Shown here: positions 27,896 to 37,031 of the stretch, in pieces
How positions within the stretch are numbered: the stretch's first letter is position 1
How the letters are laid out: every line of letters starts with the position of its first letter
DNA from: Planctomycetota bacterium
GTDB taxonomy: Bacteria > Planctomycetota > Planctomycetia > Pirellulales > PLA5
Assembly: GCA_003576845.1 (NCBI GenBank)
Contig: QEVJ01000052.1
Span: 1 to 37,291, forward strand
DNA: 37,291 nucleotides
Reading direction: 5' to 3'
The notes under the pieces: model-generated
What the model was told of the DNA's origin: nothing
Databases searched by the model: none
Seen by the model: only the letters and a program-made list of their open reading frames with translations
Position numbers and translations under genes: made by a program

Positions 27896-27939
27896 CCGAT
27901 TCAGTTCGATTGCCGTTCAATACATAAGGACGCTCTTTG

Positions 27940-29193
27940 ATGATCGCATCACCAAACGGAAACCAACCCCACGTCGTCGTCATCGGCGGCGGGCCTGCGG
28001 GCACGACCGTCTCGACGCTCGTCGCTCAGCAAGGCTATCGCGTCGAGCTATTCGAGCGCGAGACGTTTCCGCGGTTTCACATCGGCGAATCGCTGATTCC
28101 GCAGACGTATTTCGTGCTCGAACGGCTCAAAATGCTGCCCAAGATGCAGGGCAGCCGCTTCGTCAAGAAGTACAGCGTGCAGTTCGTCAACCAGCGCGGC
28201 AAGCTCTCCGAGCCGTTCTACTTCGTCGAGCACAAGCCGCACGAGTCGTCGCAAACCTGGCAAGTGCTGCGAAGCGAGTTCGACCAGATGATGCTCGACA
28301 ACGCCCGCGAGCAGGGCGTGACTGTCCACGAAGGGGCGCACGTGACGGAAGTGCTGTTCGACGGCGATCGGGCCCGCGGCATTTGCGTCAAGCTCGACGA
28401 TGGCACGATCCGCGAAGTGCTCGCCGACGTCGTGGTCGACGCCAGCGGGCAAAGCACGATGATCATGGACCGGTTCAATCTCCGTGTGTGGGACCCCGAC
28501 CTGAAAAAGGCCGCGCTCTGGACGTATTGGAAAGGCGCCCAGCGCGACACGGGCCGCGACGAAGGCGCGACGATCGTGCTCCAAACCGAAGGCAAACAAG
28601 GCTGGTTCTGGTACATCCCGCTCCACGACGACATCATCAGTGTCGGCGTGGTGGCCGGGTTTGACTATCTGTTCAAGGATCGCCCCACGAAGGATCACGA
28701 GGCGATTTATTTCGAGGAAGTCGCGCGCTGCCCCGGTTTGCAGCCGCGGATCGCGAATGCCGAGCGTGCCGGTCCGTTCCGCGTGCTCAAGGAGTATTCA
28801 TACAAAGCCAAGCGGGCGGCCGGCGACGGTTGGGTTCTCGTCGGCGACGCGTTCGGCTTCTTGGACCCGCTCTATTCGTCCGGCGTGCTGCTGGCGCTCA
28901 AATCGGGCCAGCTTGCCGCCGATGCGATCGTCGACGCCCTCGCGGCCGGCGACACTTCCGCCGCGCGGCTTGGCGGTTGGCAGCCGGACTTCGTCCGCGG
29001 CATGGACCGCATGCGCCGGCTCGTGATCGCCTATTACGAAGGCTTCAGCTTCGGCCTGTTCGTCAAGAACCACCCACATCTAAAGGGCCTGCTGACCGAT
29101 CTCTTGATCGGCGACCTGTTCAAGGACGAAGTGGACGCGGTGTGGGAGCCGATGGAGCAGATTTGGAAGGAAATGACCGCCTCGGCCGGTTAG
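27940..29193 (+). CDS. Flavin-dependent halogenase-like FAD oxidoreductase
   Basis: The 417-residue flavoprotein has the N-terminal FAD-binding GGGPAG (residues 16-21) and FERETFPRFHIGESLIP, typical of halogenases and related monooxygenases. Two further signatures of flavin-dependent halogenases are present: W-x-W-x-I-P as WFWYIP at 222-227, and F-x-x-P-x-x-S-G as FLDPLYSSG at 307-315. RFVKKYSVQF contains Lys76/Lys77 near where halogenases carry the catalytic lysine. It may halogenate an aromatic or pyrrole-type substrate using FADH2 supplied by a reductase. A geranylgeranyl-reductase-like enzyme of the same superfamily remains possible. AAGGA before the ATG at 27940 fixes the start. It follows the MarR gene by 120 bases, across a hairpin repeat. 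No flavin reductase gene is nearby. Confidence 0.8.
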   Translation: MIASPNGNQPHVVVIGGGPAGTTVSTLVAQQGYRVELFERETFPRFHIGESLIPQTYFVLERLKMLPKMQGSRFVKKYSVQFVNQRGKLSEPFYFVEHKPHESSQTWQVLRSEFDQMMLDNAREQGVTVHEGAHVTEVLFDGDRARGICVKLDDGTIREVLADVVVDASGQSTMIMDRFNLRVWDPDLKKAALWTYWKGAQRDTGRDEGATIVLQTEGKQGWFWYIPLHDDIISVGVVAGFDYLFKDRPTKDHEAIYFEEVARCPGLQPRIANAERAGPFRVLKEYSYKAKRAAGDGWVLVGDAFGFLDPLYSSGVLLALKSGQLAADAIVDALAAGDTSAARLGGWQPDFVRGMDRMRRLVIAYYEGFSFGLFVKNHPHLKGLLTDLLIGDLFKDEVDAVWEPMEQIWKEMTASAG

Positions 29194-31413: not shown

Positions 31414-32094
31414 GTGGCGCGATATCGAGTCACTCTCCTGCCGCGCCGGCAAATTTCGCCGACCAGACGCCGTTACCCGTTTAGGGCACTCGCATTGCCG
31501 CACGATCGCTCCGACCGTCGCCCCCGCAAGCCGAATCGCTCCCCGCAGCGCGGGCCGGTTCGATCCTCGTCCGCGCTTCGCCTCCGATCCGCTGGCCACG
31601 GCGAGTTCGAGCTGCTGCACCCGCGGTGTGTCCTTGAACGTGCGGACGACCTGGATGAAGTCCGCCAGATGATCGCCGCCGGCGAAATCGAGATCGCCGT
31701 CGACGAACTGCGGTGGCTTTTGTCCGGCTGCCACGACTTCGTCGACGCCCACCGGTTGTTGGGCGAGTTGGCCCTGGCCGACGACGATCTCGCCCTAGCC
31801 CGCGGACACTTCGGCATCGCCTATCAACTCGGCACGAAGGCCGCCGGCAACCTGAAGGGGACGCTGCCCTATCGCCTTTCCGGGAACCAAAGCTTTCACG
31901 AGTCCGGCAAGGGGCTCGTCTGGTGCCTGTCGAAGCTCGGCAAACACGACCTCGCCCAGGAAGTCGCCGGCGCCTTGCTGCGGTTCGATCCGACCGATCC
32001 GCTGGGCATTGGGCAGTTGCTCGCCGAACTTGCCGCCGCGGATCAACCTTCGGCCGCGCCGCACGCTGAGGCGCAACGGCCGCACGACCGCTAA
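31414..32094 (+). CDS. TPR-like protein, uncertain start
   Basis: The part from about residue 63 to 208 reads as a real protein: FELLHPRCVLERADDLDEVRQMIAAGEIEIAVDELRWLLSGCHDFVDAHRLLGELALADDDLALARGHFGIAYQLG, then GNLKGTLPYRL, and GKGLVWCLSKLGKHDLAQEVAGALLRFDPTDPLGI. The paired helices with Ala/Leu/Gly positions resemble tetratricopeptide repeats. Residues before that are arginine-rich and look non-coding. No ATG is available near the real start; GTG 31414 and an in-frame TTG at 31495 are options, so the true start is unclear. It precedes the chemotaxis gene by 180 bases on the same strand, and the two could be functionally linked. No signal peptide is seen. Confidence 0.65.
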   Translation: MARYRVTLLPRRQISPTRRRYPFRALALPHDRSDRRPRKPNRSPQRGPVRSSSALRLRSAGHGEFELLHPRCVLERADDLDEVRQMIAAGEIEIAVDELRWLLSGCHDFVDAHRLLGELALADDDLALARGHFGIAYQLGTKAAGNLKGTLPYRLSGNQSFHESGKGLVWCLSKLGKHDLAQEVAGALLRFDPTDPLGIGQLLAELAAADQPSAAPHAEAQRPHDR

Positions 32095-32274: not shown

Positions 32275-33810
32275 ATGGCGGCCAATGTCGGCAAGATTCT
32301 CATGGATAAGGAAATCCTGCTCGAAAGCGGCACGAACGAACTGGAAGTCCTGGTCTTCAACATCGGCGAGTTCTGCTTCGGGATCAACGTCGCCAAGGTC
32401 CGCGAGGTCTTCCCCCGCGGTAACATCACGGCCCTGGCCAAAGCCCATCCCTCGGTCCGCGGCGTGTTCCGGCTCCGCGATCAGGTCATCCCCTGCGTCT
32501 CGCTCGTCGATCACTTGGGCATCGAAGCGACCGGCGCCGATGCCGAGTCGACGACGATCCTTACCGACTTCAATCAACAACAGACCGCGTTCCTCGTCGA
32601 CCGCGTCGAACGGATTCACCGCCTTAGCTGGGAAAAGGTGATGGGGATGCCGCCGCTAGAATCGTTGCGGCAGACCCCCGTGACCGCGGTCGTTCACTGC
32701 GATGGCCGGCTCGTCGTCATGCTCGACTTCGAGATGATCATCGACCAGGTGACGCGGCAGGCCTATCGCGTCGGCCCGATCGAGAATGCGAAAAACTTGC
32801 CTCGCGACCAATTGCGGATCGTCATGTGCGACGATTCGCCCACGATTCGCCAGGCCGTCAGCACGACGCTGCGGACGAGTGGCTACACCCAACTCGAAGT
32901 CTTCGAGAACGGCGCCCAGGCGTGGAAGTGGCTCGAGCGCCGCCTGACCGAAGCGGGAAGCGCCGCCGGCGTCGCCGATCTCGTCATCAGCGACATCGAA
33001 ATGCCGCAGGTCGACGGCCTGCACCTCACGAAGCGGATCAAGGAGCATCCGCAATTGCGCGACCTGCCGGTGCTGCTCTACTCGTCGATCGTCACGCCCG
33101 ACAACGAGAAGAAGGGCCGCGCGGTGGGCGCGAACATGCAGATTTCAAAACCCGAACTCGACAAGATCGTCGAAATTGCCGACGGGCTGATTGCCGACGC
33201 CCGGTCGGGAACGAAAGCCGCGAAGGCGACGCCTTCCGCTTCCGCTCCGCCCCCGCAGCCGGCCGTGCCCGCAAAGAATGCTGCCGCGAACTCGGCGCCC
33301 GCCGCCAAGCTGCCGGTCAAGCCGGCCGCCGAGCTGCAAGCAACCGCGTCTCCCGCGTGCGTTGCTCCCGCCAAGTCAACGCCGGCGCCCTCCGCTCCGG
33401 CCCGCGTTCCGACGGGCGTCAATCCGGCGCTTTGGCAGACCTTCCTCGGCGAGCTTACCGACCACATCGGCAACTTGAATCGCAAGCTCAACGCCATCGC
33501 CGCGGGCGATTTCACGGACGAGGCCGCGAAAGAATTCTTCCGTACGCTCCACACGATCAAGTCGGCGTCGATGGTCATTCCTTGCGACCCAATCACGCAC
33601 GCCACGCACGCGGTCGAAGGCGTTCTGGCGCCGTTCCGCCGCAGCGTCGAAAAGTGGCCGCTTGGCACGCTGACGAACTACGTGAGTTGGCTCGAAGCCA
33701 TCGCCAGCGCCGAGGGCGACGTGAACGTCACGCTGGAGTCCGACCAGCTTCGCCGGCTGATGGCCGAGTTAGGCGAACCGCTCGCCGCGCAAGCGAAGGC
33801 GAAACGCTAA
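32275..33810 (+). CDS. CheV-like chemotaxis protein with C-terminal HPt domain (CheW-REC-HPt)
   Basis: The 511-residue protein joins three chemotaxis domains. Residues 20-165 form a CheW domain (ELEVLVFNIGEFCFGINVAKVREV; GVFRLRDQVIPCVSLVDHLGI). Residues 180-305 form a response-regulator receiver domain with the Asp pair 186-187 (CDDSPT), the phosphorylation site Asp240 in VISDIEMPQVDG, and Lys292. An Ala/Pro-rich linker at about 315-380 leads to a histidine phosphotransfer domain, where His426 in FFRTLHTIKSAS is the expected phosphorylated histidine, as in CheA P1. CheV normally has only the first two parts. It should couple receptors to CheA and could act as a phosphate relay. GAGGA before the ATG at 32275 supports the start. 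No other che genes are in the window. Confidence 0.9.
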   Translation: MAANVGKILMDKEILLESGTNELEVLVFNIGEFCFGINVAKVREVFPRGNITALAKAHPSVRGVFRLRDQVIPCVSLVDHLGIEATGADAESTTILTDFNQQQTAFLVDRVERIHRLSWEKVMGMPPLESLRQTPVTAVVHCDGRLVVMLDFEMIIDQVTRQAYRVGPIENAKNLPRDQLRIVMCDDSPTIRQAVSTTLRTSGYTQLEVFENGAQAWKWLERRLTEAGSAAGVADLVISDIEMPQVDGLHLTKRIKEHPQLRDLPVLLYSSIVTPDNEKKGRAVGANMQISKPELDKIVEIADGLIADARSGTKAAKATPSASAPPPQPAVPAKNAAANSAPAAKLPVKPAAELQATASPACVAPAKSTPAPSAPARVPTGVNPALWQTFLGELTDHIGNLNRKLNAIAAGDFTDEAAKEFFRTLHTIKSASMVIPCDPITHATHAVEGVLAPFRRSVEKWPLGTLTNYVSWLEAIASAEGDVNVTLESDQLRRLMAELGEPLAAQAKAKR

Positions 33811-35459: not shown

Positions 35460-37031
35460 ATGGCTCCATCGGACGAAGATCGCAACGCGGCGGCCCTGGC
35501 CGACGAACAAGCCACCAGCGCCGAGCAAGCCGGTGCCGAGCCGACCGATGACGAGGCGGGCCAAGAAGAAGCGCCGCTATCGATCGACAACCTCGAAGCC
35601 AAGATCGAGTCGCCCAGTGCGTGCCGCCGCCACATCACCGTGACGATTTCGGCCGAGGACGTCGCGAAGTATTTCGAGCGCAAGTTCGGCGACCTCGTTC
35701 CGCTTGCGCAGGTGCCCGGCTTTCGTCCCGGCAAGGCGCCGAAAGAACTGGTTCAAGCCCGGTTCCGCAAGGAAGTAACCGAGCAGGTCAAAGGCGCATT
35801 GCTGCTCGACAGCATCGACAAGGTCAACACGCAATACAAGCTGGCGGCGATCAGCGAGCCGGAGTTCGATCTCGAAGCGATCGAAGTCCCGGCGGAAGGC
35901 CCGATGACGTTCGAGTTCGATCTCGAAGTTCGGCCCGATTTCGACATGCCCGAGTGGACGGGGCTGAGCATCGAGCGGCCGATTTACGAGTTTGGCCCGG
36001 CCGACGTCGACCGCCGGTTGCAGAACCTGCTGCACAACGCCGGCCACCTCGTGCCGCACGACGGTCCGGCCGAGTCGGGCGATTACGTCGTCTGCAACCT
36101 CACGTTCCGCCACGACGGCAACGTGCTGTCGCGCGGCGAAGAGGAAACAATCCGCCTGCGGCCCGTTCTGAGCTTCCGTGACGGCCGGATCGAAGACTTC
36201 GACGAAAAGCTCGCGGGCGTCAAGGCCGGCGAAACCCGCGAACTGTCGGCCAGGCTCTCGGCCGACGCCCCCAACGAGAAGCTCCGCGGCCAGGAAGTCA
36301 CGGCCGAAGTCGAAGTGCTCGACGTGAAGAAGCTGGAGCTTCCCGAAATCACGCCGGAATTCTTGGACGAAGTTGGCGGTTACGACAGCGAGGCGGACCT
36401 GCGCGAATCGCTGCTCGCCGATTTGAATCGGCAATTCAAGTTTCGCCAGCAGCAGCATTTCCGCCGCCAGATCACCGCGGCGCTCATCAAGGACGCGAAT
36501 TGGGAGCTGCCGCCGGAAATGCTCAAACGTCAGGCCCAGCGCGAGCTCGAACGGAGCGTTTTGGAACTCCGCCGCAATGGGTTCAGCGAGCAGGAAATTC
36601 TCGCCCACGCCAACGAACTGCGTCAGAACAGCATGACGAACACGGCGCGGGCGCTCAAGGAACACTTCATCCTCGAACGGATCGCCGAGGACAACGGCAT
36701 CGAGGCCGCCGAGTCGGACTACGACGACGAAGTGTATCTCATCGCTCAGCAAAGCGGCGAGAATCCGCGGCGGGTGCGGGCCCGGCTCGAAAAACGCGGC
36801 CTGTGGGACGTGCTTCGCAACCAGATCATCGAGCGCAAGGTGATCGAGCTGGTGCTCGAAAACGCCAGGTTCAAGGACGTGCCCTACAAACCGGAGGCTT
36901 CGGCCGAAGAAACGACCGAGGCCGTCGACCAGGCGGCGGGCGGCGGAGACGCGGGCGAGGACATTCCTCAAGCCAAGTACGGCGCCGGACCTGCGCAACA
37001 AGAACTGCCCACGGACGAGAACAAGCAATAG
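35460..37031 (+). CDS. tig: Trigger factor
   Basis: The 523-residue protein matches trigger factor, the ribosome-bound peptidyl-prolyl isomerase and chaperone for nascent chains. The ribosome-binding signature GFRPGKAP is at residues 87-94. The FKBP-like PPIase domain follows at about 195-290 (ESGDYVVCNLTF; DEKLAGVKAGETRELS), then the long helical chaperone arms (LRESLLADLNRQFKFRQQQHFRRQI; LPPEMLKRQAQRELERSVLELRR). It is longer than the usual 430 or so: about 45 acidic residues precede the N-terminal domain, and an acidic, glycine-rich tail of about 50 residues ends in TDENKQ. The gene follows tRNA-Gly by 129 bases. The next gene, after 214 bases, is probably clpP-like, the common neighbour of tig. 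Confidence 0.95.
   Translation: MAPSDEDRNAAALADEQATSAEQAGAEPTDDEAGQEEAPLSIDNLEAKIESPSACRRHITVTISAEDVAKYFERKFGDLVPLAQVPGFRPGKAPKELVQARFRKEVTEQVKGALLLDSIDKVNTQYKLAAISEPEFDLEAIEVPAEGPMTFEFDLEVRPDFDMPEWTGLSIERPIYEFGPADVDRRLQNLLHNAGHLVPHDGPAESGDYVVCNLTFRHDGNVLSRGEEETIRLRPVLSFRDGRIEDFDEKLAGVKAGETRELSARLSADAPNEKLRGQEVTAEVEVLDVKKLELPEITPEFLDEVGGYDSEADLRESLLADLNRQFKFRQQQHFRRQITAALIKDANWELPPEMLKRQAQRELERSVLELRRNGFSEQEILAHANELRQNSMTNTARALKEHFILERIAEDNGIEAAESDYDDEVYLIAQQSGENPRRVRARLEKRGLWDVLRNQIIERKVIELVLENARFKDVPYKPEASAEETTEAVDQAAGGGDAGEDIPQAKYGAGPAQQELPTDENKQ

Follow-up and report, generated by a model that had tools for sequence, protein, structure and literature searches.

The role of CheV phosphorylation is debated, the protein being seen either as a phosphate sink or as a receptor-binding switch, and one gene in a 37,291-nucleotide stretch of a Planctomycetota genome (the window) raises the question of what such an adaptor would do with an HPt domain of its own. 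Ordinary CheV binds receptors in the array and is regarded as a drain on the phosphate of CheA (PMC4742279), and in P. aeruginosa the CheV phospho-mimic D238E binds one receptor tightly, which the unphosphorylated form does not (PMC12691637). The open-access literature searched yielded no CheV with an HPt domain, although other papers may mention one. CheW domain architectures were reportedly surveyed by Vass et al. in 2022.

A CheV extended at its C-terminus

The gene, here CheV-HPt, is an unbroken open reading frame in the window translation. The initial annotation described a CheW domain, a receiver with its phosphorylation site at Asp240 and an HPt domain with His426; the two residues lie exactly where they had been placed and each domain exceeds its curated Pfam cut-off (Table 1), the HPt match (residues 386-457) scoring 32.6 bits where the cut-off is 24.6. 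No match to the P3 dimerisation domain (H-kinase_dim) or the P4 kinase domain (HATPase_c) was found in the protein with Pfam.

Table 1. Features of the CheV-HPt locus in window coordinates
Feature	Position	Strand	Basis
Upstream gene, weakly TPR-like and probably unconnected with the system	31414..32094	+	sub-threshold TPR_14
CheV-HPt gene, CheW-REC-linker-HPt, 511 aa	32275..33810	+	ATG start backed by orthologue alignment
CheW-like adaptor domain, residues 24-158	32344..32748	+	Pfam PF01584, 101 bits
Receiver domain (REC), residues 182-300	32818..33174	+	Pfam PF00072, 68 bits
Asp240 codon, predicted REC phosphorylation site	32992..32994	+	shared without exception by 19 HPt-bearing orthologues and by the CheVs of Phycisphaerae and Bacillota
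Linker rich in Ala and Pro, with predicted disorder, residues 311-383	33205..33423	+	composition and model
HPt domain, CheA-P1 type, about residues 384-480	33424..33714	+	Pfam PF01627, profile match to 1tqg, predicted helices
His426 codon, predicted HPt phosphorylation site	33550..33552	+	conserved 22/22
His445 (+19) to Glu448 (+22) codons, CheA-P1 active-site network partners	33607..33618	+	residue comparison

Alignment shows that the first 310 residues descend from a CheV; widespread domains have not simply come together here by chance. In a collection-wide scan, CheVs of Phycisphaerae and Bacillota form one continuous alignment with residues 11-306 at about 40% identity, and an annotated Bacillus velezensis CheV among the plasmid-borne records is 33% identical. 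The order of CheW then receiver is that of the CheVs of Bacillus, Salmonella, Pseudomonas and Helicobacter, and the N-terminal motif ILLESGTNELE is common to the window protein and Bacillota CheVs. A complete receiver active site (D187, D240, S270/S271 and K292) is invariant among 19 HPt-bearing orthologues and is likewise kept in comparison with the Phycisphaerae and Bacillota CheVs. Foldseek ranks CheW folds highest for the full-length model, and the predicted CheW adaptor domain would couple receptors to CheA in the array.

Beyond the length of an ordinary CheV, the C-terminus carries 200 extra residues, made up of the predicted disordered linker (73 aa, 52% Ala+Pro; 36-171 aa within the family) and the HPt domain. 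That ordinary CheV lacks an HPt holds for every such protein inspected: those of Phycisphaerae, of the rest of the phylum (12 phylum-level CheVs outside the window's order), of Bacillota and of plasmids all end after REC, whereas the window protein continues into a linker and an HPt of the CheA-P1 type. A full-length AlphaFold model, built with an alignment of CheVs without HPt only, has a well-formed CheW and REC; residues 321-374 come out disordered, and five helices occupy 384-510, the latter region with pLDDT of about 52-81 per ten-residue block and below 50 at 435-442. The HPt modelled alone, at moderate confidence, gives no significant Foldseek match (1tqg at rank 2, E 1.1), and VIA-align returns general helical bundles with Z of 8 or less, in a search where missing HPt entries are uninformative. 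Fold prediction, proposed in the initial annotation as a check on the HPt, gives a weak answer: a helical bundle is predicted and a significant Foldseek match is absent.

A CheV match occurs in 42 of 396 genomes of the window's order, and trees split these CheVs into two groups. The first, to which the window protein belongs, holds 21 members with HPt (the window's included), seven whose sequence stops at REC and one, G373, that is truncated where its contig ends; the count of 21 includes one genome (G027) whose HPt lies on a separate contig end and whose assignment to CheV is itself inferred. Another order of the same class contributes one more HPt-bearing CheV (genome G992), bringing the orthologues to 22. 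The HPt region is covered by no match among the plasmid records. Taken from this distribution and the alignments, CheV with an added HPt is a real, conserved and lineage-restricted variant of CheV. The second, well separated group consists of shorter, distinct CheVs without HPt (among them L039 7506-8489, L043 8339-9271, L049 8643-9593, L050 5543-6499 and L051 1247-2194), and both groups are present together in eight genomes of the order.

Type and origin of the HPt domain

In the P1 domain of CheA the phospho-His lies in an HxxK motif, whose Lys (+3) partners it together with a His (+19) and a Glu (+22) further on (H48, K51, H67 and E70 in E. coli; H45, K48, H64 and E67 in T. maritima), and Lys429 (+3), His445 (+19) and Glu448 (+22) of the window protein are presumably the same hydrogen-bond partners. 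A residue comparison covered 22 CheV HPts, 33 CheA P1 domains and nine HPts that stand free or belong to hybrid kinases; almost all of these sequences come from the window's order. The initial annotation had let its reading depend on the conservation of His426, and this residue, together with Lys429, His445 and Glu448, is kept in 22 of the 22 CheV HPts. The histidine at +19 is found in all 22 of these and in 32/33 CheA P1 domains, but in 0/9 free or hybrid-kinase HPts. Against the Protein Data Bank, the only convincing natural relatives of the CheV-HPt profile are CheA P1 domains (1tqg, E 2e-11; 1i5n, E 8e-10; 2ld6; 8c5v). In a maximum-likelihood tree of HPts, those of CheV form one clade (support 100/100), and a branch that unites them with the CheA P1s is split from the remaining HPts at 99/93. 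By residue set, profile and tree, the HPt is of the CheA-P1 type, and these three lines together point to a single origin, most likely from a CheA.

The CheV core tree is compatible with a single gain: it groups 21 of the 22 HPt-bearing CheVs (support 93/67), and a single HPt-bearing clade with G992 added is not rejected (AU p 0.33), a one-clade rejection at p 0.024 having arisen from scoring the contig-cut G373 as lacking the HPt.

The likeness to CheA P1 extends to the profile, the phospho-His with its three partners and the branch of the HPt tree, but CheA P1 sits on a kinase whereas the window HPt sits on an adaptor and has two private residues. Serine, a small residue, stands at +4 in 19 of 22 CheV HPts where 32 of 33 CheA P1 domains have glycine, and proline stands at +10 in 21 of 22 where 29 of 33 have glycine. 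Small residues at +4 are reported to be compatible with phosphotransfer (PMC6341664). Given that in the CheA3P1-CheY6 crystal structure the residue ten places after the phospho-site His51, Gly61, is in contact with the response regulator (PMC2817712), the changes at +4 and +10 may alter the choice of regulator.

These changes at regulator-facing positions raise the possibility that the HPt serves for docking or as a decoy, and would bind the CheA P4 domain or a regulator in competition with CheA P1 and without useful phosphotransfer. The faster evolution of the domain points the same way: identity to the same-genus orthologue is 60% for the HPt, 83-85% for CheW and REC and 49% for the alignable linker, and dN/dS in the same comparison is about 0.31 for the HPt (dN 0.30, dS 0.98) against about 0.10 for CheW and about 0.15 for REC. 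Nevertheless, these ratios indicate that the HPt is kept by purifying selection, less strictly than the rest of the protein, and His426 with its three partners, kept in 22 of 22 sequences, would be dispensable to a module that binds without catalysis. A decoy role is considered improbable.

A separate change is seen in the first of the two HPts of the window genome's CheA1 (L035 4736-5041, on contig C33 of genome G000), which keeps the phospho-His and has Leu and His in place of His+19 and Glu+22, with Ser at +4. The first HPt of CheA1 in the sister species G001 retains the full residue set, and one CheA1 P1 may be degenerating in the window species.

Predicted phosphate flow

It is suggested, as a reading with about an even chance of being correct, that CheV-HPt acts as an extra P1 tethered to the array, which CheA phosphorylates in trans and which donates to a response regulator. 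Its CheW domain would anchor the protein in the chemoreceptor array close to CheA, the P4 kinase domain of a neighbouring CheA would phosphorylate His426 in trans, the long flexible linker would supply the reach of the HPt, and phospho-His426 would donate to the protein's own receiver at Asp240, a site that governs receptor binding and drains phosphate in ordinary CheV, or to a CheY; the array location, the trans phosphorylation by CheA and the identity of the acceptor we infer. There is precedent for the central step in R. sphaeroides, where CheA4 phosphorylates the P1 of CheA3 in trans (PMC2817712; PMC10782961). CheA3 sits in the array, lacks a working kinase domain and has as its identifiable active parts a P1 and a CheW-type domain; CheV-HPt likewise combines these two domains without a kinase and would share the location. 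CheA3 is, however, a degenerate CheA with an N-terminal P1 and no receiver, whereas the window CheV gained a C-terminal P1 in a genome that, unlike the CheA3 case, has complete CheAs besides. Several findings count against an extra P1: first, CheA1 and CheA2 carry P1s of their own, so that none is needed for basic signalling; second, the HPt has its private changes at the regulator-facing +4 and +10; third, the HPt-bearing genes show, with few exceptions, no linkage to cheA, and the fold search with the HPt was not significant. The narrower idea that CheV-HPt is the P1 source for CheAs lacking that domain was rejected, since the two-HPt CheA1 or other CheA P1s persist in the window genome and in 15 relatives scanned for HPts.

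The initial annotation had envisaged a different route, a buffered adaptor or relay in one chain that takes phosphate from CheA, stores it and passes it on. On this reading phosphate would go from CheA P1 to Asp240 and on to His426, where a longer-lived phospho-His would make of CheV a buffered phosphate sink. The presence of a receiver and an HPt on one flexible chain, with both sites invariant, is consistent with such a relay; published work favours a sink role for CheV (PMC4742279; PMC12691637), and a receiver acts on HPt domains in the CheAs of A. caulinodans and P. aeruginosa (PMC10782961). Those hybrid CheAs (ChpA and the A. caulinodans CheA) likewise combine HPt and receiver in one chain, with possible phosphate exchange between them, but contain a kinase core, of which the window protein has none. 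Against the relay, the relay-type HPts of these genomes are without His+19 whereas the window HPt has the CheA-P1 set, and a sink depends on fast hydrolysis of the aspartyl phosphate, which storage on histidine would slow. While the identity of the protein as a CheV and the conservation of His426 stood, the route through Asp240 is thus displaced: given His+19 and Glu+22, direct phosphorylation of the HPt by a CheA kinase is the likeliest path on residue evidence and the more economical. The storage relay ranks second to the extra P1 and is possible, if on balance unlikely.

Should the extra-P1 reading hold, CheV may have taken over the phosphodonor role of the kinase's P1, and the receptors that recruit it would have an output channel of their own, charged by CheA in trans; this is put forward tentatively, with the balance leaning somewhat against it. 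In that event the choice of adaptor, and not kinase activity alone, would set the destination of phosphate, and CheV-HPt would be a second natural P1 working away from the kinase core, of separate origin from the CheA3/CheA4 pair of R. sphaeroides. The protein joins predicted phospho-acceptance and phospho-donation in one adaptor that is conserved in 22 species of one class, and studies of how phosphate moves through arrays would find in it a module ready for use. Its architecture is unusual, yet amounts to one more domain in a pathway that is well known, and it suggests that an adaptor may itself be able to act as a phosphate carrier in the signalling array.

Genomic surroundings

Chemotaxis genes of the window genome lie elsewhere, with cheW, cheR, cheA1, cheC, cheD and cheY on contig C33, cheA2 on C223, two receptors on C73 and cheB on C192; both CheAs have kinase domains. 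In the order as a whole, the seven HPt-less sister CheVs all lie about 2 kb from cheA, as in G020, where the gene order is cheW-mcp-cheR-cheA-cheC-cheD-cheV-ABC1-cheB, whereas none of the 21 HPt-bearing CheVs is beside cheA, the distance being at least about 70 kb where the two are not on different contigs. A Fisher test of HPt against cheA linkage gives 5e-6, a value that is overstated given that the classes are mostly two clades, and the association is a correlation without independent replication. A rule that the HPt marks an orphan gene was rejected for the same reason and in view of G992, where the HPt-bearing CheV lies in a che cluster with cheD and a receiver gene immediately upstream.

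That 21 of the 22 HPt-bearing genes lie outside che clusters raises the possibility that the HPt links the array to a partner from outside chemotaxis, such as a hybrid kinase encoded elsewhere in the genome or a response regulator of another pathway, and there are receiver-domain genes beside CheV at L038 and L042 and a LuxR-type regulator at L040. The HPt is, however, in the CheA-P1 class and not that of hybrid kinases, the neighbours of CheV are not conserved across genera, and one HPt-bearing gene does lie in a che cluster. A partner of this kind is given only a slender chance, and the extra P1 charged by CheA is preferred.

The initial annotation also pointed to a TPR-like gene directly upstream. 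The position is correct, the gene ending 180 bp before the CheV-HPt ATG, and its TPR_14 match in Pfam is sub-threshold (21.3 bits, cut-off 23.5). The gene adjoins CheV only within the same genus, and a functional link to CheV-HPt was therefore rejected. Downstream, on the opposite strand, lies a gene for a zinc-type alcohol dehydrogenase.

Several further observations were made in these loci. An ABC1 atypical kinase-like gene is found directly downstream of clustered CheV in two orders (L047 3907-5451 and L265 7245-8735). Upstream of the G992 che cluster that ends in CheV-HPt, L265 1447-4013 (contig C166) encodes CHASE3 and then a putative PAS-domain start joined to a P3-P4-P5 core of CheA type, in a reading frame that a frameshift interrupts. 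It is the single CheA found that apparently lacks a P1; this may be a real sensor-CheA lacking P1 or the result of an assembly deletion between mcp and cheA, and given the latter possibility it was accorded no weight for the idea of P1 supply. Within the window itself, 27937-29193 (+) encodes an FAD-dependent protein that scores strongly against the tryptophan-halogenase family of Pfam, and 35460-37031 (+) encodes a trigger factor of 523 aa with low-complexity, extended N- and C-terminal tails outside its Pfam domains.
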